Origin: Lepiota brunneoincarnata
Lineage: Eukaryota > Basidiomycota > Agaricomycetes > Agaricales > Agaricaceae
Length of the DNA: 64,000 bases
NCBI GenBank assembly: GCA_023014365.1
Contig: JAEBUN010000035.1
Span: 310,001 to 374,000, forward strand
Direction of reading: 5' to 3'
The notes below the pieces were generated by a model. The model did no database searches. It saw nothing but the letters and a program-made list of their open reading frames with translations, and was not told where the DNA came from. Positions 2,791-63,459 of this stretch are shown here, piece by piece (within the stretch, counting starts at the first letter, position 1; each line of letters opens with the position of its first letter). The position numbers and the translations under genes are program-made.

Positions 2791-3115
2791 CTACTCGGAG
2801 TCTGGCGCTGGATTGCCGATGATTCTAAAATTCTGCACATCACGTTTCTGATACCCTAATTGTCCTTGAGAAGGACATTTTTTTTAAGTGCCGGCGAGCG
2901 GGGAGAGGGGGAGACAGAGGAACTTACGAGGCTCATGTCCTGGGTGCGAATCAGGCGTTGGGTTGCCAACGATAGCGAAGTTCACTTGTTCGGTTTGGTC
3001 AGCCCATCCGTTGATCAACTAAATCTATGTACTCACAAGGTTCTAAGGTGCTTGCTACAGGGGCGGCAGCGGCTCCTGAGATGAGAACGAGGACGGCAAG
3101 GAGGGCTGAACGCAT
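2791..3115 (-). CDS. Small secreted repeat peptide precursor (KEP/RiPP-like)
   Basis: The start at 3115 opens a classic signal peptide, MRSALLAVLVLISGAAAAP. Exon 1 is 3037-3115 (donor GTGAGT), exon 2 is 2928-2984 and exon 3 is 2791-2847, ending in TAG. Exon 2 encodes LNFAIVGNPTPDSHPGHEP and exon 3 encodes RDVQNFRIIGNPAPDSE. The two exons therefore carry two copies of NFxxxGNP(T/A)PDS, the same motif repeated 15 times in the large precursor at 12136-15043. Splicing leaves exon 3 one base out of frame in the A run at its start (2845-2847); removing one A restores it. In the alternative reading the junction gives a KR dibasic site. The mature protein would be only about 45 residues. I infer a secreted, proteolytically processed peptide; its activity is unknown. 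Confidence 0.65.
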
Positions 3116-4562: not shown

Positions 4563-5836
4563 ATGAGCAACCCCAACGCACCACCCGGCGAGTCAGCCGC
4601 AGACATCTTCAATGAACGTACCATCCTCGACGGTCCTCTTCCTCGGCGCTGTAGCCTACGGTAAGCGCTGTTGCTGCAAGTGGAGGAGCTTAGCCCTTGG
4701 TTAATCACTGATGTGTCTACCCTGCGAAGGTGTCCATCTGACCCTCTTCGCCTGGTGCTTCCAGCTTTTAATCCACAAAAAGAAGACAAGAGGCGACTAC
4801 CTTCTCATGGTTTACATATCATTACTGTTCATCATGGGGAACGTTGGCAACGGCACCAATATCAAAGTCGGAGAATTGACATTTGTGGATAACCGAAACT
4901 ACCCTGGAGGTCCAAATGCGTACTTTTGCTACAGGGGCGGGGCCCGTTGGGCTCACCTGCAACGTTATTTATATCATCAACACCTGGTTCCAGGATGGAC
5001 TATTGGTGAGCGAAACCTGTTTCAAGGACCATTCAATGCGTTGGCCATGGTCCTAAATTTCATTTACCAGCTCTACCGATTCTGGATGTTCTTCCAACAC
5101 AACGGCTGGTATCTAACCGTTGTACCAGGCCTCATGTTCGTCGCCTCTGTGGGTGAGTCAATGAGCATTCCATCCATCCTTGGATCCGCGTTTCCTGACT
5201 CCGGCTACCCCCCCCAATTCGTCAGCTCTGTCCCTCATGCTCATAGTCATGCTCTGCGTTCCTGGGATAACCCTCTGGTCCACTATCGCTAGCCAGCTAG
5301 CGATCTCATACTGGTCAATATCGATCGCGTTGAACGTCGTCATCACAGCCTGCATCGTCGCCCGCCTGCTCTACATGAGATACCAGCTGCGTCGAATAGT
5401 GTCGGGAGCTGGATCCGAGTATATTTCAGTCACAGCTATGCTAGTAGAGTCCGCGGCACTCTACACAGTGAACGGATTGCTATTCCTGGTTAGCTTTGCT
5501 GTCAACAACTCCGTTCAAAATATCTTCCTTCCTGTGCTTGGTCAAACCCAGGTGCGTTTATTTCATTTCATCTCGGCTTGCGTGGAGAAAAAAAGTGCTA
5601 ACGAGTATCCACTGAATTACTACAGTCGATTGCTCCACTGTTAATTATCTTGCGCGTGCTGCAGGGTCGTGCTTGGTCGTCCTGCCACTGTTGCCAACTT
5701 CAGCGTCCAAACGGGTACCGACGTGCGGTTTAACAATATGAGCAATACAGTGGTCGGGACCAGCGGGACTAACCACTCATTCATCGCGAAGAGCCAGGGG
5801 AGCAATCCAAGCATAAAGGATAAAGAGTCCGTTTAG
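4563..5836 (+). CDS. Seven-helix integral membrane protein (agaricomycete family)
   Basis: The gene has at least five exons: about 4563-4660, from 4730, a short intron near 5005-5070, a second near 5154-5225 and a third near 5551-5624. Hydrophobic segments in order include VLFLGAVAYGVHLTLFAWCF, LLMVYISLLFIMGNVGNGT, a CNVIYIINTWFQDG region, YLTVVPGLMFVASV, LMLIVMLCVPGITLW with a following helix, and LYTVNGLLFLVSFAV. The stretch GELTFVDNRNYPGGPNAYF is characteristic of a large uncharacterised mushroom family; I know of no assigned function. Single extra bases are needed near 4923 (T run after NAYF) and near 5683, and possibly near 4611, where an alternative start (MNVPSSTVLFLG) also fits. It lies beside the peptide locus and could be a transporter or receptor, but nothing shows that. 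Confidence 0.75.
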
Positions 5837-6475: not shown

Positions 6476-7574
6476 ATGTCGTCAACCTCTCAACCGAACA
6501 ATGTTTTAGCTACAGAAGGAGAGATGGTATGGAACGTTCCGAATGCCGGGAAACTATGCAAGACGTGGTATCGGATATACGGCGACTTGACATCTGGAGT
6601 GCGGCCATTGGTGGCTCTACACGGGGGACCTGGCGTCACCTCAGACTACCTTACCATCTTCTCCAATCTCACCCAACAAAAGTCTATTCCTGTCGTCATC
6701 TACGATCAGCTTGGGAATGGACTCTCGACACACCTTCCGGAAAAGAAAGGCGATGTGGAAGTTTTGGACCGAGCAACTTTTTTTGGATGAACTAAAGCTC
6801 CTTCTCGAGCATCTCGGAATATACGATAACTATGACCTCCTGGGTCATTCCTGGGGTGGGATGCTTGGGAGCTCGGCATGCTGTTCGACAGCCCGGCGGC
6901 CTTGAGCATCTTATTATCGCGTCTTCTCCTGCATCGCAGGAACTCTGGATTGAGGCACAAAATGTCCTCCGAACAAAGCTTCCCCAAGAAGTGCAGGACA
7001 CTCTTGACAAGTGTGAAAAGGAAGGGAGGACGGACAGTAAAGAATACCAAGATGCAGTTGCTGTCTATTATTCGCGGTTCCTTTGTGTGTTGAATCCAAT
7101 GCCCTGAGGCCCTTCAAAAGTCCTTTGGGTGGCTGGAGAAAGATCCAACAGTATACCTCACAATGTCAGCTTCCCTCCCCACCCCTCTGTCTTTCACGAA
7201 ACTAGAACGTTGAACCATGTCTCTTGTAGGAACGGTCCGTCAGAATTCTTCGTTACCGGCCCTTTAAAAGACTGGTCGATTCTCGACGAAGCTCACAAGA
7301 TCGCGGTTCCGACGCTTCCTGACGAACGGATGGAAGGACGAAGCAGCTGATAGTTGCGTGTACCCATTCTTCAAGTTGATCCCCAAGGTCCGCTGGGTGC
7401 AATTTTCTGTATGTCGCCCCCCTCCCTTTTACACATTATGCATACGTATCCATGAGCTTTTCTCCCCCCCCCCCCCGCTGAAACGTTATGAAAAAGGAAT
7501 CTAGTCATACGGCACACTTCGAAGAGCAAGAGAAGTACCTCGAAGTTGTTAGTCTCTTCTTGATGAGCGAATGA
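6476..7574 (+). CDS. Alpha/beta hydrolase, proline iminopeptidase-like (peptidase S33), frame-disrupted
   Basis: The N-terminus contains [14 protein letters not shown] (oxyanion region HGGPG), then [10 protein letters not shown] and the nucleophile elbow GHSWGGMLG, as in S33 proline iminopeptidases and related amidases. Downstream come [19 protein letters not shown], a [14 protein letters not shown] segment after an intron (about 7161-7229), and the His-bearing end [19 protein letters not shown] after a second intron (about 7409-7495), with a stop at 7574. The expected Ser-Asp-His triad is therefore present. Four +1 shifts interrupt the frame, near 6752, 6868, 7102 and 7318; each is fixed by removing one base. 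S33 enzymes release N-terminal residues, often proline, from peptides. Its position next to proline-containing peptide precursors and UstYa-like genes makes a role in peptide trimming attractive, but this is inference. Confidence 0.75.
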
Positions 7575-8558: not shown

Positions 8559-9263
8559 ATGAAGTTGAGCAAGGTATGTGTGGTCGTTTCCTCAATCCCC
8601 CCCCCCCCCCACTTCAGACTTGGAGCTTAAACCGCGAGACTAGGATTTTCCGTATTATGCCGCTGTCGTAACCTGTGCCTACGTTGCAATATGCAACCTG
8701 CTCCGCATCTCAGCAACGTTCAAACTGAAAAGTGCCCTTTCAAACCACGTTGATTTCCGTTCGTTACTATATTGTTTCCTTCTTTCAAGAACGAAAAAAA
8801 TCTCAACCTATGTTCGTTGTTAGCCCTGAGTGCAGATGGATACCCTCGTCAACTCCCCCTCAATGTACGAAACGCAGTCATGGTATTCAACGATACATCG
8901 CACTACGGCCTACACGACGTACACGAATGGGAATCACTCACACCGCCGGGAAATGGGTGGGTCGTACTCGAGCCTGGACTTCGATCGTACGCGGTCACAA
9001 TGTACCACCAGTTACATTGTCTCAATGCGATGCGCTACGACCTCACCCAGTCCAAAATCGGGAAGAACGCCACTTCGGCAGAGCTCGGTCATGCTCACCA
9101 TTGCTATAACTATATTCGCCAGGGTTTACAGTGTCGTTTGGACTTGACGTTGGAACCGAATCATGAAGGGACGAATGGGCTCGCTCATGTTTGTGGGGAT
9201 TGGATTCAGATTCGGACTTTCATGGAGCAGAATTACCGCAAGTATCCCTCGTACTATGTTTGA
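8559..9263 (+). CDS. UstYa-like oxidase (DUF3328), canonical copy
   Basis: UstYa-family proteins are small membrane-anchored, probably metal-dependent oxidases that install ring closures in fungal ribosomal peptides such as ustiloxins. Both signature HxxHC motifs are present: HQLHC in YHQLHCLNAMR (about 9003-9035) and HAHHC in HAHHCYNYIRQGLQC (about 9088-9135). They are followed by LTLEP and HVCGDWIQI. The upstream core YPRQLPLNV and EWESLTPPGNGWV also fits. The start is chosen at 8559: a 15-nt first exon (MKLSK), then an intron with acceptor at 8643, opens into a membrane helix (YYAAVVTCAYVAICNLL). The second intron before about 8790 is uncertain; the only phase-compatible donor I see gives a very short intron. 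First of three tandem genes of this type. Confidence 0.82.
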
Positions 9264-9920: not shown

Positions 9921-10616
9921 ATGAAGCCCAGCATTGAACGCGGAATCCCATTTCATGCGTTTCTGCCTTTTATCATTATCTTGTCCCTAAGCACGGCGTT
10001 CAACGCTGTGTTGACCTGGAACGACTTCCGGACGCTCAACACGATACGGGATGCTAGAGGTTTGTGCGACAATGCTTCATAAGGCCCCCATCAACTGACC
10101 AGCAGAGAACTTGACAGTGTCAAGACTTACTGCTGGAAAGAATGAGGTTCCGTTCAGGTTGGATCCAGTCGCGTTGATGGTCGACGCAAATGGGCGCTAT
10201 GGAATGAGCGCAGACGACGAGTGGGAATCCCTCTTTCCCTCAAACCATGCCTCGGGCATACACCTCGATCCCTCCGCGATGGAACATGGAGAATATATCT
10301 CCGTCTACCATCAACTGGGTTGCCTGAACTCCCTCAGGACAGCTCTACATGAACCCCGGTTGGGAAGACGACAGGAAGAAGAAAGCACGAGCGCATCACT
10401 GTATGAATATCCTACGCCAAGCTGTCCTCTGCAATGCAGATACCACCCTCGAACCATCGTTACCAGGAAGCACTCTCTGACGGGAAGTTGGTGGCTGCTG
10501 CGAGTGGGATGGATGTACTTCATGTGTGTAGAAACTGGGAGCAACTCAGGACTCTGGCCGAGGAAGACAGATTCGCAACCAGCCATCATTATCATCATCA
10601 TTCTTTGAGCGAATGA
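9921..10616 (+). CDS. UstYa-like protein (DUF3328), altered motifs
   Basis: Exon 1 (9921-10059) encodes a short N-terminus and a membrane helix (FHAFLPFIIILSLSTAFNAVL). Exon 2 begins near 10106 with ENLTVSRLTAGKNEVPF. The core DDEWESLFPSN and YHQLGCLNSLR is followed, one frame later, by AHHCMNILRQAVLCNADTTLEP and, one further frame later, by YQEALSDGKLVAAASG and HVCRNWEQLRTLAEED. Two +1 shifts (about 10349 and about 10457) break the frame. Compared with the copy at 8559, the first HxxHC motif reads HQLGC and the second reads RAHHC, so one His is missing from each. Since these His residues are thought to bind the metal, this copy may be inactive or serve as a partner subunit. The order and spacing of all other family motifs are intact. 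Confidence 0.75.
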
Positions 10617-10901: not shown

Positions 10902-11218
10902 ATGCGCCCAGAACACGACGAAGAGACCAAGACGCTGTTGTCGTCTAGGTCGAGTGATGATGACGAGTTCAGCAGCAGTCCTACAGTGGATCAGCTGGAG
11001 CAGCCGAGGAGCACAAAGACTGGCTTCATCACTCCGAGAGCGATTTACCTCTTCTGTTTCCTCGTCTTTGTGCTGAATGCCGGACTACTGGCGGCAAGTT
11101 GGCGTGCACAAGAGGAGATGAAGGGTTTATACTCCACCATGGAGCGTAACGTTGCGAATCTTCCCTCGACCAGATGCGTTCGCTGGGTTGTCCGACGCAG
11201 CGAGAAGCCGTCCTGACG
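10902..11218 (+). pseudogene. UstYa-like N-terminal exon only
   Basis: The start at 10902 gives an acidic cytoplasmic N-terminus (MRPEHDEETKTLLSSRSSDD) and one membrane helix (IYLFCFLVFVLNAGLLAASW). One extra base near 11162 must be removed to read NLPRPDAFAGLSDAAR, a segment typical of the start of the UstYa luminal region. A consensus donor follows (GTGAGT at 11219). I find no HxxHC-bearing continuation anywhere between 11219 and 12135, so the catalytic part is missing. Either the gene is truncated or this single-helix protein has another role. Confidence 0.55.
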
Positions 11219-12135
11219 GTGAGTTGAGGAATTTCTTATTTTCCATCGATACTGAACGATGCACTTGAGCAGTTCGGCCTGACTATTGAGCTGGGCTAAT
11301 GCTCCGGATGGGATGGACTTGCACGAGTAGCAGAGGGGGTGTGTGTGTGGGCGGTGTTCATTCGGGTGGAGCGCTGATCAATGGGATCCCATGTTTCATG
11401 TCCATATTAGGCAATCATTCATATTGGATCATTCCTTCCTTTCGCGGACCCAAGACCGTTATTGTCCCCGAGTAGCTATAGAGCGGGGGTGCTGTGCGCT
11501 GACTTGACGCGTTACATTGCAGCGCGCGCAGTGCTATTTTTGGGGATTTAGTCTTTGCCCTGCTGTGCTAGTCTAGTAGTGGCCCCCATGGTGAATTGGC
11601 GGCGGTGGCAAATGAGATGGAAAGGGGTGAGGTGGACGGTTCGCGACGCCCCAATGGGTTCCAATAATGGTATAGCTCGGTTAAATGCAGGGGAGAGGGG
11701 TGGGGGGGGGGAGTGATCAATCGGGACCTAGCCCCGAAGATCTCGTTTCATTGTCCTCGATTTTTACCGTTGCTACATATACGATTCTGGGAAAGAAGCC
11801 GTGTTGTGTGCGACATCGACACATTGTTAAGCCCCGTTCTGTTTGCTCAATAGCAATGAATATGAATACGAATCGGTGCAGATTGTCACGGAAAAGTTAT
11901 CTGAAAGGTCTTAATGTTTGATGTTCAGGTACATAGTACGTAGGGGGGGGGGGGGGGTGTGTGTGCGATGGCGGCCACCCGCGCGGGTGGGCCAAGTCTT
12001 TTTTTGTACATAACAGCTTTGTTATTTCCTACTTGGTATTTAAAGTGGGCTGGAGTTTGGCTCTCTCTCTCGCGCTTACCCGCTTATTCCACATTTCTCC
12101 TCTCTCCCACCTGAACACTAAACTTGTGTTTAAAC
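11219..12135. other. Intergenic; promoter of the large precursor
   Basis: No UstYa core and no other gene is recognised. A G run at 11943-11957 and CT-rich sequence at 12060-12110 precede the precursor start, consistent with a promoter and 5' UTR. Confidence 0.35.
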
Positions 12136-15043
12136 ATGCGACCGTTGCTACTTGCTGCTCTCCTCTTCCTCTGTTCCTTTGCGAGCGGATTGCCAATCAA
12201 TTACAATCCTGCGTTGAACTTGAGTGAATAACCAGAATTCCCGTTCAGAGACTCAAAGGAGGGTTTTGCTCATAACCTTGTTCGATTATAGGGACCCCGA
12301 CGCCGGACTCGGCGAACAGTAAGTACATACAATCCGGCTTATACTCGGGGGAAGGGGAACAAACAAACTGACTTTGTCCATAGGGCGTTATGAGAGTCGT
12401 AAGTGATATTTTTGTTTCACGCTGAAACTGTGGCTGAACGACACAAAATTCAGGAGAGGCATCTGAACGACGTATGTCTTTATCTACATATGTATTTTTA
12501 TTTTTATTTACAGCTGTCTAAACTTGAGCAGAGAACTTCAAGAAATCTGGTAATCCAACTCCTGATTCTGTTCTCCGTCGTGAGTGTTTACTTATGTCGC
12601 ATGGATCTTGGAATTAAGCTAATAAGCATAAAAAGGTGAGCCTTCTGGGAAACGTAAGTCTGCTCATACGCATTTATCCTACAGCCATCTAATCCTAAGC
12701 AGAGAACTTCAAGAAATCCGGTAACCCAACTCCTGACTCCGACTCCGTTCTCCGTCGTAAGTCTTTGGCCATATGGATCTTTTTGAAATTAAGCTAATAA
12801 AAAACTAATGAAAGGCGAGCCATCTGGGAAACGTAAGTCTGCTCATATGCATTTTTATCCTTGCAGCCATTTAAATCCTGAGCAGAGAACTTCAAGAAAT
12901 CGGGGAATCCGACTCCTGACTCTGTTCTCCGTCGTGAGTCTTTAGCCGTATGGATCTTGAAATTAAGCTAATACCATGAAAGGCGAGCCATCTGGGAAAC
13001 GTAAGTCTGCTCATATGCATTTTATCCTTACAGCCATTCATTCGTGAGCAGAGAACTTCAAGAAATCGGGGAATCCGACTCCTGACTCTGACTCCGTTCT
13101 CCGTCGTGAGTATTTACTTTGGCCGTATGGGTCTTGGAATAAACTAATAGTGTGAAAGGCGAGCCGTCTGGGAAACGTAAGTCTGCTCATATTCATTTAT
13201 CCTACAGCCATCTAATCTTTAGCAGAGAATTTCAAGAAATCGGGGAATCCAACTCCTGACTCTATTCTCCGTCGTAAGTATTTGCTTTCGCCGTATGGAT
13301 CTCAGAATAAGCTAATAGCATAAAAGGCGAGCCGTCTGGGAAACGTAAGTCTGCTAATATGCATTTTTATCCCACAGCCATTTAATCTCGAGCAGAGAAC
13401 TTCAAGAAATCGGGGAATCCAACCCCAGACTCTATTCTCCGTCGTGAGTATTTGCTTTCGTCGTATGGATCTCAGAATAAGCTAATAGCATGAAAGGTGA
13501 ACCATCTGGGAAACGTAAGTCTTCCACTCTGCTCATTTATCCTACAACTATCTAATCTTAAGCAGAGAACTTCAAGAAATCTGGGAATCCAACTCCTGAC
13601 TCTGACTCCGTGCTCCGTCGTGAGTATTCACTTTCGTCGTATGGGTCTCAGAATAAGCTAATACCATGAAAGGCGAACCGTCTGGGAAACGTAAGTCTGC
13701 TAATATGCATGTATCCTACAGCCATCTAATCTTGAGCAGAGAACTTTAAGAAGTCCGGTAACCCAACTCCTGACTCCATTCTCCGTCGTAAGTGTTTGCT
13801 TTCGCCGTATGGATCTTGGAATAAGCTAATACCATGAAAGGCGAACCGTCTGGGAAACGTAAGTCTGCTAATATGCATGTATCCTACAGCCATCTAATCT
13901 TGAGCAGAGAACTTTAAGAAGTCCGGTAACCCAACTCCTGACTCCATTCTCCGTCGTAAGTGTTTGCTTTTGCCGTATGGATCTTGTAATAAGCTAATAG
14001 CATAAAGGCGAACCATCTGGGAAACGTAAGTCTTCCACCCCGCTCATATGCATTTATTTTACAGCCACTTAATCTTGAGCAGAGAACTTCAAGAAATCTG
14101 GGAATCCAACTCCTGACTCCGTTCTCCGTCGTAAGTTATTTGCTTTGCCCGTATGGGTCTTGGAATAAGCTAATAGCATAAAAGGCGAGCCGTCTGGAAA
14201 ACGTAAGTCTGTCCCTCCACCCATTTCCCTATTTTCCCTGCAACCATCTAATATCGAGCAGAGAATTTCAAGAAGTCGGGGAATCCAACTCCTGACTCCG
14301 TCCTCCGTCGTGAGTATTGACCTTCGTCGTATGGATCTCAGAATAAGCTAATAGCATAAAAGGCGAACCAGTCTGGAAAACGTAAGTCTGTCCCTCCACC
14401 TATATCCCTATTTTCCCTGCAACCATCTAATATCGAGCAGAGAATTTCAAGAAATCAGGGAATCCAACTCCTGACTCTGATCCTACGTCGTGAGCACTCA
14501 CTTTCCATTGCGTGAATCCCGGAGAGAGTGAGCTAATAGCATATGGAAAAAAGGCGAGGCATCTGAACGCCGTAAGCCTGTCCCCTCTGTTCCACATGCC
14601 ATTTTTCCATGCAGACATCTAACTAATCTTGAACAACAGAGAACTTCAAGAAATCGGGGAATCCGACCCCTGACTCCGTTCTCCGTCGTGAGTTGATTCA
14701 CTTTATTATTGTTGCGTGCATCTCGGAGTGAGCTAATTGATGTGACAGGAGAGGCAGATCAAGGACGTAAGCATGCCCCCCCCCCCTTACCATGTGCTAT
14801 CTTTCGGCGGCCGGCTGAGCCTTGAGCAGAGAATTTCAAGAAATCCGGTAACCCGACTCCTGACGGTCTCCTGATTCGTGAGTATTCGACTTTATTGTAT
14901 ATGTTCCATAGATTAACATTTGAAAAGGCGAGGCATCCAAAGAACGTAAGTCTGTTCTTCCACCTTTTTTTCTTCCACAACCTATCTGACCTCGGGCAGA
15001 GAATTTCAGGAAATCGGGGAATCCGACACCTGACTCTGTCTAA
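12136..15043 (+). CDS. Large repetitive secreted peptide precursor, about 33 exons (KEP/RiPP-like)
   Basis: Exon 1 (12136-12223) encodes the signal peptide MRPLLLAALLFLCSFASG and a short leader. Exons 2 (12292-12318) and 3 (12384-12398) encode RTPTPDSAN and RRYES. After these, 18-nt exons (REASER/REPSGK type) alternate with 48- or 54-nt exons (QNFKKSGNPTPDSVLR type), 15 of each. The first 18-nt exon is 12454-12471. The last long exon starts at 15000 and ends in TAA at 15041-15043, directly after NPTPDSV. All introns are phase 1, so one frame runs to that stop, giving about 377 residues. Each unit ends in RR, a Kex2-type site, followed by Glu-Pro or Glu-Ala. Two +1 bases disturb this, in the exon at 14363-14381 (19 nt) and at 14441-14489 (49 nt). 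The architecture matches Kex2-processed repeat precursors such as those of ustiloxin-type peptides, and UstYa-like genes lie just upstream. The peptide itself is unknown to me. Confidence 0.85.
12454..15043 (+). repeat. Tandem repeat, 15 units of about 165-175 bp with conserved introns
   Basis: Each unit holds an 18-nt exon, an intron starting GTAAGTCTG and ending in a CTAATC branch with GAGCAG acceptor, a 48/54-nt exon, and a second intron starting GTGAGT or GTAAGT with a shared TATGGATCT...AAGCTAATA core. Long exons start at 12532, 12703, 12886, 13052, 13226, 13396, 13566, 13740, 13908, 14083, 14262, 14441, 14640, 14830 and 15000. Three units (starts 12703, 13052, 13566) have a 6-nt expansion giving PDSDSVLR. 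Units starting 13740 and 13908 are identical in their coding exons. Introns are as conserved as exons in the middle units, while the outer units (REASER, READQG, REASKE) diverge, which is the pattern expected from unequal crossing over. Confidence 0.92.
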
Positions 15044-15336
15044 CGTCACAAGCAATCAATCCTGTCACTGAGGGATGGACCTAGTGGGTGGCTCTGACTT
15101 GCTTAAATTGTGAGAGAGAGCTGTCCAACAACTCGGGGGGCGGGGTCTCGGTATAAATTCGCAAATTACGGCTTTGTTTGTTTTGATATGATGTTTTGAT
15201 GGCTTTGTTTCTATTGTAAACCAATAATGATAAGATAAGATCTGTTCACGTGAGATGACGCTCAGTCAGCAACATACAAAATCGATCGCGCCACTCCCTT
15301 GCAACGTTTGACCACATCGGGGGCCCAAAAATCGCC

Positions 15337-16242
15337 ATGCTTGGTCGTTTAAAGACCCTCCTCAGTGTCACTCCCCCTGTCATAGACCCTGCCAAATTCC
15401 GTGCCACCATGAGTTCCGGTTCGTCTTACCCTTGTCACAACCTTCATTTCTAATCCAACAACAACGGCTGATCCATAAACCCAACTTACAGAGGCACTCA
15501 AACCAGAGATTGCCACATTTGCAGCAGGGTGTTTTTGGGGCGTAGAACATATCTTCTTGAAGCATTACCCACCTTCGCAGAACAAAGGAATCCTTAAGAC
15601 ATCCGTGGGTTACACCGGTGGCAATCCACTCGTCACACATCCCACGTACAGAACCGTGAGTTCAGGTGCGACAGACCACGCGGAGGCTTTGAGAATCGAG
15701 TTCGACCCTGGAATCGTTAGCTTACGCTGAACTTGTGGGTGAGTGGTTATGTAAAATCCCCCCCCCACCCTGTTTTTTGTGAATTTCTTATTTTTTCTAA
15801 TTCATTCCCCCAAAAACGAAAACGTCGTCATATGCACAACTTAGAATTCTTCTATCGTACCCATGACTCCACGGCACTCAATCGGCAAGGTGTTGATGTT
15901 GGAACTCGTAAGTTTCCCTTTTCACGCCACCCACCCACACACATACACACACACTCTCCTTCTCATGTGCTTTTTTACGGCCCGCTTATTATTATTTCCC
16001 TTTCCGCCATTGGGCGCACAGAATATCGGTCCGCGATCTTTTACCATTCTCCAGAGCAAGAAGCCATCGCAAGGAGAGTTACGGAAGAAGTTCAAGCCAA
16101 GCATTTCACTCCCAAAGGTCTCAAGATCGTCACAGAGATTACCCCAGCGGCTGAATGGTGGTCCGCCGAGGAATACCACCAATTGTACCTCTTCAAGAAT
16201 CCAAGTGGTTATCAGTGTCCAACCCATAAACTCCATTGGTGA
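15337..16242 (+). CDS. msrA: Peptide methionine sulfoxide reductase A
   Basis: MsrA reduces methionine-S-sulfoxide in proteins. The catalytic motif GCFWG sits in [14 protein letters not shown] (about 15520-15550), followed by [16 protein letters not shown], the [26 protein letters not shown] segment, and the usual end [22 protein letters not shown]. Exons are 15337-15418, 15492-15738, 15845-15907 and 16022-16242, all with GT...AG introns. A single extra T near 15720 (TTAGCTTACGCTG) breaks the frame inside SYAEL. For such a conserved single-copy gene, an assembly error is the simplest explanation. The start at 15337 adds about 24 residues before the second ATG at 15409; this extension could be a targeting peptide or 5' UTR. 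Confidence 0.93.
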
Positions 16243-58001: not shown

Positions 58002-59382
58002 TCAGTGATATATGGTCTTCTTGGTGGGGCATTCACAGGTGAAGTGTCCAGTCTTGTGGCAATTGAAGCATCTCTTCTCTTTGAGATCCCTTCTCTGGGC
58101 ATCTGTGAGGATTGCAGTTGAGGGCTTCACAGGTGCACTCTTGTACCAACTGGTGGAGTCTGTCTTCTTCAGTTTCCTCATCTTCATCAGCTTCCTCAGT
58201 AAGTAAATCTGGCTTGTCCTCAAAGTTGAGGTTGTAGACCACTTTGGTGAGTTGGTCAATATCCATTGCATTAAGGTCTGTTACTTGATAGGGGAGTGGG
58301 ACACAGCATGTAAAAGCATTCCTTTTCCCTTTAAATGAGTGAGGGTGCAAAGTCATTGGAAACAAGGGAGTTCCTTGAGTTTGCATATAGTCACATTGAG
58401 TTTGTAATATTTGATATGCTGTTTGAGCTTGCTTGAACCAGTCACTGAGTTTGTTTTCTGGATTGAGGCTAATTGTTTTGATTGCGACAGGGTGATCCAG
58501 CCCATTCTTGAAATAGTTGACCACCACCACTCCATCTCCAAGGTCAGCCTGGTAAGCAAGTATCTGGAACTGGGATATGTAATCATCGATATATTGTCCA
58601 TTCTGTTTGAGGTGGCAGATTCTGTCCATCACATCTGTGGGGACATTGTTTGGGGCAAAGGATGTGTCAAGTCCTTCAATGAATTTCTTCCATATTGGAA
58701 GGGTCTGGCTTCCATCAAGTTCCTTGTTTAATTCCAAAAATGCTCCTCGCCATGTTGCAGTGGGGCTGGTGGACATGTTAGAAAGGGCGAATTGTATCTT
58801 GGTCTTGTCATTGGAAAAGGCTCCAGGCTTTGCATCAATGTATAATTGTATGGCATCCTTCCAGAGGTGGTAGTAGTCAGTCTCTCCATTAAAGGTTGGG
58901 GGTGTATTGATCTTTGTGGAGGAGGCCATATTGTCAATGTCAGAGGTTGTGGATTCTTTGTTGGAAGTATGAATAGACCCGGTAGTGAGGCTAACTTTGG
59001 GTGATTTAGGTTGTACAGGGGAACTGGATTGAGGTGGTGAGTGTACCAGTGATCCAAGTGGTGATGTGAGGGGTGAGAATGTTCTTGAGGGTTCCTGTTG
59101 TGAAGTGTTGTCATGAGTTCTTGTACTTGTTGAGGGTTGAGGACCAGAGGATGGGGCAGATATTCTATGAATTGGCTCCCTGAGCTTTGAGCAGGTAGAG
59201 GTGGCAGTTCTTTCAGGTGGTGGTTGTTTAGGTAGGGATTGAAGAACTGATGCTGGGGGTGCTGGGTATCCTGGGTCTTCTGTTTGACATTGAACTCTCT
59301 TGGTAGGTTGTGTAGGGTATGGTGTGGAACCAGAGGGTGAACAAGTGAGGGGTATAGGTTTTGTTTTCTTTTTAGGGTCCAT
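58002..59382 (-). pseudogene. Retrotransposon Gag polyprotein
   Basis: A long frame from 59382 contains a Pro/Ser/Thr-rich head, then PPTFNGETDYYHLWKDAIQL, a capsid-like segment (WKKFIEGLDTSFAPNNVPTD, HLKQNGQYIDDYISQFQILA) and LTKVVYNLNFEDKPD. One frame later, at about 58028-58074, is a zinc knuckle, CFNCHKTGHFTCEC (CX2CX4HX4C). The frame change near 58110 separates capsid and knuckle. Upstream, 59382-59672 holds a second frame with repeats of the form DWDNxPxSxVY, which may be an N-terminal extension. Gag packages the element RNA; this copy is probably non-functional. Confidence 0.8.
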
Positions 59383-59905
59383 GGTGGAGGGGGTGTGAGG
59401 TTGGGTTCAGAGTTGGTTGTTGACCAGTCAGAACTGTTAGATTCTTTGTAGTTGGTGGCAAGGGGGTCATTTTGGTTTGTAGACAGGGTGTAGAGAGAAG
59501 AAGTTGAAAGTGAAGGTGGGGGTAGAAGTGAATAAACAATGCTTGCAGGTGCATTATCCCAATTGATGCTTGAAGGTGCGGATGACCTGTATACAACACT
59601 TATGGGTGTGTTATCCCAATCAACACTTAAAGGTGTGGATGACCTATCAATGCTTTCAGTGTGTCTGACCAAGGGTGCAGAGGGTATGGTGGCCTGCTCT
59701 ACAGGGGTGTATCACCAGACAGCAACAAGGCATGTCATCAGATACGGTTGGCACTTGGATAGCAATAAAGTGTATCGTCTGCCAGTGTGGAAGGGTAGCA
59801 ACAAGGCATACTGATGCCAAAGGGTGTATGATGGAGATTATCCAAAGGAAGCTTTAATCTAATGTTATGATCTGTGCTCCTTCTGTATCCAAAGCTAACT
59901 GGAGA

Positions 59906-63177: not shown

Positions 63178-63231
63178 TGTAGTCCCCTTACACAAGGTGA
63201 ATTCTTCACTAATTCCTTTAGTGTATCCATT

Positions 63232-63459
63232 GCAGCCTGTTCTTCACTGCCAAATCTAAATTCCACTCCTTTCCTTGTCAACTTGACCAGAGGTCATGAG
63301 ATTGCAGCAAAATCCTGGAGAAAAATTCGGAACATGCCATCCATCGCAGCCTGTTCTTCACTGCCAAACCTAAATTCCACTCCTTTCCTTGTCAACTTTA
63401 CCAGAGGTTGTGAGATTGCGGCAAAATCCTGGAGAAATATTTGGAACGTGCCAAGGGTA
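63232..63459. repeat. In-frame 114-bp tandem duplication in pol
   Basis: The segment GCAGCCTGTTCTTCACTGCC onward occurs at 63232 and again at 63346, about 114 bp apart (38 codons). On the minus strand both copies read the same frame (EEQAAMDGMFRIFLQDFAAIS then QPLVKLTRKGVEFRFG), so the RT/RNase H connection is lengthened by 38 residues without a frameshift. Confidence 0.8.

Follow-up and report, generated by a model that had tools for sequence, protein, structure and literature searches.

What does a gene encode when every one of its repeats is cut by two introns? This question is raised by a tandem array in the agaricomycete Lepiota brunneoincarnata, located at 12136-15047 on the plus strand of a window of 64,000 nucleotides (nt), the whole stretch of DNA analysed here (positions 310001-374000 of contig C31, in a genome of 55.6 Mb and 95 contigs). 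The array is real and coding. Judged from sequence, its probable product is a secreted repeat precursor of the Kex2 type, belonging to a dikaritin-like peptide pathway.

Structure of the array

A splice model of 33 exons and 32 introns fitted the interval, in agreement with an initial annotation that had proposed about 33 micro-exons and 15 repeats. A start exon of 88 nt, with a signal-peptide-like segment, was followed by exons of 27 nt and 15 nt and then by 15 exon pairs. Each pair, referred to here as a unit, consisted of an 18-nt spacer exon (B) and a core exon (A) of 48 or 54 nt. The alternation of 18-nt and 48/54-nt exons described earlier was confirmed in all units save unit 12 (19 and 49 nt), and the claim of two introns in every repeat was correct. 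The splice sites were as conserved as had been claimed, with GT at the start and AG at the end of all 32 introns, which were 49-68 nt long.

Through unit 11 the introns were in phase 1, lying after the first base of a codon, and the exons were thus symmetric. Length was divisible by three in 27 of the 29 non-terminal repeat exons, while intron lengths were spread over the three classes modulo 3 (8/10/14). A branch-point-like word, CTAAY, was present near the 3′ end of 22 introns, against 3.6 expected from base shuffling, the intron copies being related and not 32 independent cases. The acceptor was CAG at all 15 A exons and AAG at 13 of the 15 B exons. The idea that B exons have weak acceptors was dropped, since AAG was also found at three of the five introns of a related precursor on contig C14 (see below). 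A tandem-repeat scan of the DNA detected a period of 168 nt spanning 12509-14494.

Evidence for coding

Codon variation was counted without unit 12, and the codon alignment omits the two extra DS codons of units 2, 4 and 7. Fifteen codon columns were variable in units 2-11. In 14 of these the variation was synonymous-only, the sole replacement being Val/Ile, and the pooled ratio of nonsynonymous to synonymous substitution (dN/dS) was 0.022. It was 0.102 when pooled over 13 units (1-11, 13 and 14), a set that also leaves out unit 15. Nucleotide identity within units 2-11 was 0.90 in exons and 0.82-0.86 in introns. Because the B exons of units 2-11 likewise varied only synonymously, they appear to be selected as coding sequence. 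Rfam and tRNA scans were empty.

Predicted product

The predicted product begins with MRPLLLAALLFLCSFASG-LPINYNPALNLRTPTPDSANRRYESREASERQNFKKSGNPTPDSVLR and continues with repeats of REPSGKQNFKKSGNPTPDS(DS)(V/I)LR. An earlier reading of the repeat as REPSGK followed by a core was borne out, in the form REPSGK-QNFKKSGNPTPDS(DS)(V/I)LR. The N-terminal signal peptide looks typical by eye. Units start with EP or EA after Arg, a sequence of the XA/XP type, and Trp was absent from units 1-11 and, in their own frame, from units 13-15.

Arg-Arg, previously thought to occupy every junction, was found at 12 of the 14 A-to-B junctions (A1-A11 and A13); A14 led instead to IR, and A12 read in its own frame gave no RR. 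The codon for the second Arg is split over the A-B splice junction, with C on one side and GN on the other.

Related precursors in the genome and in Leucocoprinus

A second, short precursor of three exons lies in the window on the minus strand (Table 1). Its cores are NFAIVGNPTPDS and NFRIIGNPAPDSE-stop, and it has one KR. TATA-like words were seen 99 and 80 nt ahead of the start codons of the two window precursors, at 12037 and at about 3195 on the minus strand, respectively.

A paralogous cluster was found on contig C14 at about 3.666-3.690 Mb, in which the same gene types recur. Its hydrolase was 74% and 66% identical to the window copy in two pieces, and its first UstYa gene 79% identical over 123 residues. 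It also contained a gene similar to the second UstYa gene of the window (with HQISC), a membrane-protein start with 46% identity over 35 residues, and several copies of multi-pass-like membrane proteins (L054, L056 and L057; 3.669-3.690 Mb) with 37-73% identity over pieces. The C14 precursor, at about 3.6795 Mb, had six exons with about one core per exon (GFAIIGNPTPD, NPTPVA, GFTIIGNPTPD and GFLMLGSSTPD), and all five of its introns were in phase 1. A degenerate precursor copy (L050, about 3.6678 Mb) was located 12 kb from it, beside a fragment of a proline-iminopeptidase-like hydrolase. When the C14 precursor was compared with the protein database, none of 53 candidates reached E<=1.

The core motif F-x3-GNP(T/A)PD recurs, with a few variants, in a Leucocoprinus protein as well as in the 33-exon gene and two other precursors of this genome. 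Searching the genome with the pattern GGNAAYCCNRCNCCNGAYTC at one mismatch returned 25 matches, against 4 in the control. Seventeen of the matches were in the window, one in the C14 cluster and seven elsewhere. Among the last, L037 was rejected as a methionine aminopeptidase by eye; L038, L041 and L044 were viewed as a 20-residue frame, and L039, L043 and L045 make up the remainder. A second pattern gave 8 genome matches against 1 in the control and added L050; it also matched on contigs C25 and C36, where at most one frame was glanced at.

The Leucocoprinus protein was recovered in a search for the long precursor among 5.8 billion proteins, of which 7995 candidates were scored. Among the matches listed, the only credible relative was P0001, a 'hypothetical protein' of Leucocoprinus leucothites (D9756_009978; E 6.7e-17). 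A second match (P0002) was dismissed, having an E-value of 0.02 and unrelated precomputed Pfam domains (PF07494 and PF01436). The C-terminal half of P0001 holds five NF-x3-GN(P/Q)TP(D/G)S units, three of which are followed by RR within three residues, and the gene finder did call these repeats as coding. The N-terminal half matches the small single-pass membrane protein of the window (48% over 88 columns), so the order of membrane protein and precursor is kept. Thus P0001 shares with the window GNPTPD-type repeats, RR after three of them and the membrane-protein match, but differs in being annotated as one protein of 200 amino acids. It is probably a fusion of two genes introduced by the gene model.

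The gene neighbourhood

The domain of the first UstYa gene (UstYa1) lies about 3 kb upstream of the array. Its HQLHC, its HxxHC and a later Cys were invariant across 11 aligned sequences (the window copy, the C14 copy and nine of 16 database matches). Relatives of UstYa1 had 67-82% identity in jgi, lgn and ena records and 50-61% in Crepidotus, Coprinellus and Ephemerocybe, and a search of the PDB gave no UstYa relative. The second UstYa-like gene (UstYa2) has HQLGC where HQLHC is expected and lacks the first HxxHC motif. The whole genome contained 18 matches to PF11807, counted by exon, of which two were in the window. These two genes and the paralogous cluster agree with the earlier proposal of UstYa-like partners. 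Other UstYa matches formed close groups on C8, C10, C14 at 1.70 Mb, C18 and C65.

The proline-iminopeptidase family (TIGR01250) was matched by the window pieces of the hydrolase and by an open C14 copy. The C14 piece scored 138.7 bits (E 2.7e-40), short of the cut-off of 167.65, and the hydrolase matched PDB entry 3wmr at E 1.1e-52. The tested pieces of the multi-pass-like membrane protein and of its C14 homologues matched no Pfam family above the cut-off; a protein of this type might be a receptor or transporter partner. In a Pfam search of 30 open reading frames (ORFs) of the window, from which short exons could escape, no P450, tyrosinase or methyltransferase domain was found. Since a methionine sulfoxide reductase exon lies downstream, the array seems to mark the end of the cluster.

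Table 1. Features of the window
Feature	Position	Strand	Remarks
Short precursor, three exons	2791..3115 (3115-3037, 2984-2928, 2855-2791)	-	both introns phase 1
Multi-pass-like membrane protein exons	4705..5641	+	'multi-pass' by eye; homologues around C14 cluster, 37-73% over pieces
Proline-iminopeptidase-family alpha/beta hydrolase	6476..7104	+	pieces 6476-6760 and 6892-7104, different frames
UstYa gene 1, last exon	8826..9260	+	PF11807 (DUF3328) domain, E 5.3e-17; open frame 8754-9260; HQLHC and HAHHC
UstYa-like gene 2	10099..10605	+	PF11807; domain match 10349-10459; overlapping frames differ
Small single-pass membrane protein ORF (DEETKTLL...)	10902..11213	+	akin to N-terminal half of P0001; end matches other frame, 11152-11220
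Precursor exon 1, start and signal-peptide-like segment MRPLLLAALLFLCSFASGLPINYNPALNL	12136..12223	+	signal peptide by eye
Precursor exon 2 (27 nt), (R)TPTPDSAN	12292..12318	+	presumed relic, or first half-core
Precursor exon 3 (15 nt), linker encoding RRYES	12384..12398	+
Units 1-11, alternating 18-nt B and 48/54-nt A exons	12454..14309	+	phase 1, frame intact
Unit 12, B exon 19 nt, A exon 49 nt	14363..14489	+	joined frame lost
Units 13-15	14554..15047	+	more diverged; TAA 15041-15043 within A15, own frame
Methionine sulfoxide reductase exon	15721-16239
Ty3-type retrotransposon gag	58036-59406	-	PF19259 E 4.9e-8; PF03732 E 1.7e-6
Tandem repeat of 114 nt	63225-63453		two copies, 92% matches

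Proposed pathway and alternatives

We suggest that the transcript is spliced about 30 times and that the precursor would enter the endoplasmic reticulum. Kex2 would cut after Arg-Arg to give about 11-14 copies of EPSGKQNFKKSGNPTPDS(DS)(V/I)L. Basic ends would be trimmed by Kex1, and the N-terminal EP or EA may be removed by a Ste13-like enzyme or by the proline-iminopeptidase-family enzyme of the cluster. UstYa may then oxidise or cross-link the F...GNPTPD core. We take F...GNP(T/A)PD as the modified core because the spacer varies and the motif is kept across paralogues, although the motif could also serve for recognition instead. The array probably arose when an intron-bearing unit was duplicated in tandem; the C14 precursor, with about one intron per repeat, is consistent with this.

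Several observations weigh against this reading. Tyr is absent from all repeats of the 33-exon precursor, whereas it occurs in 65.6% of DUF3328-linked repeats in the Umemura survey (excerpts of PMC7329392), and DUF3328 proteins also occur outside pathways of ribosomally synthesised and post-translationally modified peptides (excerpts of PMC12048977). KR, RR and KK are all absent from the C14 precursor. The cores of the 33-exon precursor contain KK, which the available text of PMC9769878 names as a KEX2 site, and a further cut there is possible. KK was absent from the cores of the other precursors, and RR was therefore taken as the main site. Over all 15 units, identity was 0.753 in B exons, against 0.723 and 0.754 in the introns and 0.862 in A exons. 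The joined frame breaks in unit 12, and the window hydrolase, UstYa2 and the small membrane protein are matched in changing frames, which fits decay if it is not assembly error.

A weak screen for exon-per-repeat structure (17 sequences, both strands, one shuffle each) likewise found no exon-per-repeat pairs at other UstYa loci. It picked out its positive control (L040) but neither L050 nor the short window precursor. Regions flanking other UstYa genes were not clearly above shuffles, and within about 1.5 kb of the UstYa matches on C8, C10, C14 at 1.70 Mb, C18 and C65 this screen detected no precursor. A match at L057 was set aside as a TPR-like repeat by eye. A tandem-repeat finder run on 22 UstYa-related loci gave four small matches and no precursor array.

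The earlier claim of a Kex2-type repeat precursor with UstYa partners is supported by the sequence. The lack of Tyr in the repeats and of a dibasic site on C14 speaks against a simple dikaritin label, and since DUF3328 proteins also serve other pathways, the gene may or may not belong to the dikaritins. The strongest competitor, which we regard as possible but considerably less probable than a UstYa-modified product, is a linear peptide matured by Kex2, Kex1 and Ste13-like trimming and secreted unmodified, with UstYa acting elsewhere. Linear, minimally modified peptides of this kind have been obtained from four agaricomycetes (excerpts of PMC9769878). The EP or EA that follows Arg in each unit corresponds to the XA/XP signature given in the same excerpts, the P0001 units begin by eye with SA-MP, AP and AA-MP after RR, and there is no Tyr for a classical ether cross-link. 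However, UstYa genes stand beside the same precursor family in two clusters, and it is F...GNP(T/A)PD, not the spacer, that is conserved across the paralogues.

The frame changes bear on a second alternative, namely that the array once worked but the locus is now dying while the C14 cluster stays active. A single frame had been thought to run to a TAA in the last repeat; the joined frame in fact stops in unit 12, whose sequence was taken as assembled without frame repair, and units 13-15 give a good reading only in a frame of their own. With unit 12, the hydrolase, UstYa2 and the small membrane protein, four elements of the window change frame. Breaks of this sort are not confined to this locus, however. 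Among 23 matches to HSP70 genes of the same genome, some of which could be pseudogene copies, four neighbouring pairs (on C90, C19, C58 and C79) overlapped or were at most 4 nt apart in different frames. Three further pairs shifted frame across 17-31 nt, the shortest intron in the precursor models being 47 nt. The HSP70 locus on C47 is also listed among the frame changes without room for an intron. This suggests many one-base errors in the assembly, and assembly error is a fair explanation for the break in unit 12. The synonymous-only variation in units 2-11 and the open exon of UstYa1 also argue against decay, which we consider unlikely. The product may comprise 11 or up to 15 units.

The split Arg codon and the symmetric exons of units 1-11 mean that inclusion of the 18-nt exon creates RR. 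When it is skipped, core joins core in frame (...LR-QNF...) with no dibasic site there, and the KK in the cores remains. Splicing could thus conceivably control proteolysis, with regulated skipping of micro-exons yielding either peptides cut in different ways or a repeat protein left mostly uncut, but we hold this to be rather improbable. Still less likely is a surface or amyloid-like repeat protein in place of free signalling or toxin-like peptides. The Ustilago protein Rep1 is of the Kex2-processed type, and its peptides act on hyphal walls and assemble into amyloid-like fibrils (excerpts of PMC6339444 and PMC9769878), but the present units are short, charged and rich in Pro, Asn and Lys, with no obvious amyloid-like pattern by eye, and are linked to UstYa. 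A non-coding tandem repeat in which splice-like sites arose by chance, a reading for which the independently detectable 168-nt period and the similarity of B exons to introns across all 15 units might speak, was rejected on the synonymous-only variation at 14 of 15 variable codons in units 2-11, the amino-acid motif also recurring in unlinked genes and in another species.

Comparison with known systems

Kex2-processed repeat proteins (KEPs) with UstYa are an already known family. In the Umemura survey, 103 of 1680 Basidiomycota KEPs have a DUF3328 gene nearby (excerpts of PMC7329392). Among the matches listed from a literature search outside which most subscription journals lay, no precursor with introns inside every repeat was found. 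The excerpts of PMC9769878 mention 'intron-less KEP gene sequences' derived from cDNA, which implies introns in some Coprinopsis KEP genes at positions not stated there, and in repeat genes of Glomeromycotina one or two introns lie close to the signal sequence instead of in each repeat (excerpts of PMC8786786). The words intron and exon are absent from the main texts of PMC7329392 and PMC6339444. As far as the literature matches listed show, there is no earlier description of this motif family, of two introns in each repeat or of an RR codon split by splicing.

Surveys of KEPs start from predicted proteins, and a gene with its repeats divided among exons of 18 and 48 nt could escape them. Gene finders could plausibly overlook the present gene with ease. 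That no repeat precursor can be recognised in some UstYa clusters is a described puzzle (excerpts of PMC12048977), of which the micro-exon layout may explain some cases. The motif F-x3-GNP(T/A)PD together with the architecture can be searched in DNA rather than in protein sets. The gene also raises the question of how a fungus would reliably remove about 30 introns around 18-nt exons.

Exon symmetry is a trait of the micro-exon genes (MEGs) of Schistosoma, which share with this gene many symmetric micro-exons and a secreted product, here a predicted one. The likeness is an analogy only, as the introns here are 49-68 nt long, the organism is unrelated and the sole credible relative among the matches listed is fungal; MEGs have exons of 3-81 bp and introns of up to 5 kbp (excerpts of PMC10526429). 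With ascomycete alpha-type pheromone precursors the gene shares the Ste13-type XA/XP, here EP or EA, but it lacks the Trp that alpha-type cores hold (excerpts of PMC6339444).

The dikaritins (ustiloxin, phomopsin and asperipin-2a), as defined in the excerpts of PMC9769878 and PMC12048977, have in common with the array a signal peptide (by eye), repeated cores with dibasic sites and DUF3328/UstYa nearby. The cluster holds a UstYa gene, two HxxHC motifs in UstYa1 and a repeated core with Kex2 sites. It differs from the dikaritins in its intron-split repeats, the lack of Tyr, the core F-x3-GNPTPD and, among the 30 ORFs searched, the lack of P450, tyrosinase and methyltransferase domains. The repeat layout and the Ste13-like XA/XP after the cut are shared with the KEPs of Agaricomycetes, and 15 repeated units (11 in unbroken frame) with dibasic sites between units were found here. 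Unlike those KEPs, the present precursor is built as a micro-exon array of 33 exons and has UstYa in its cluster.

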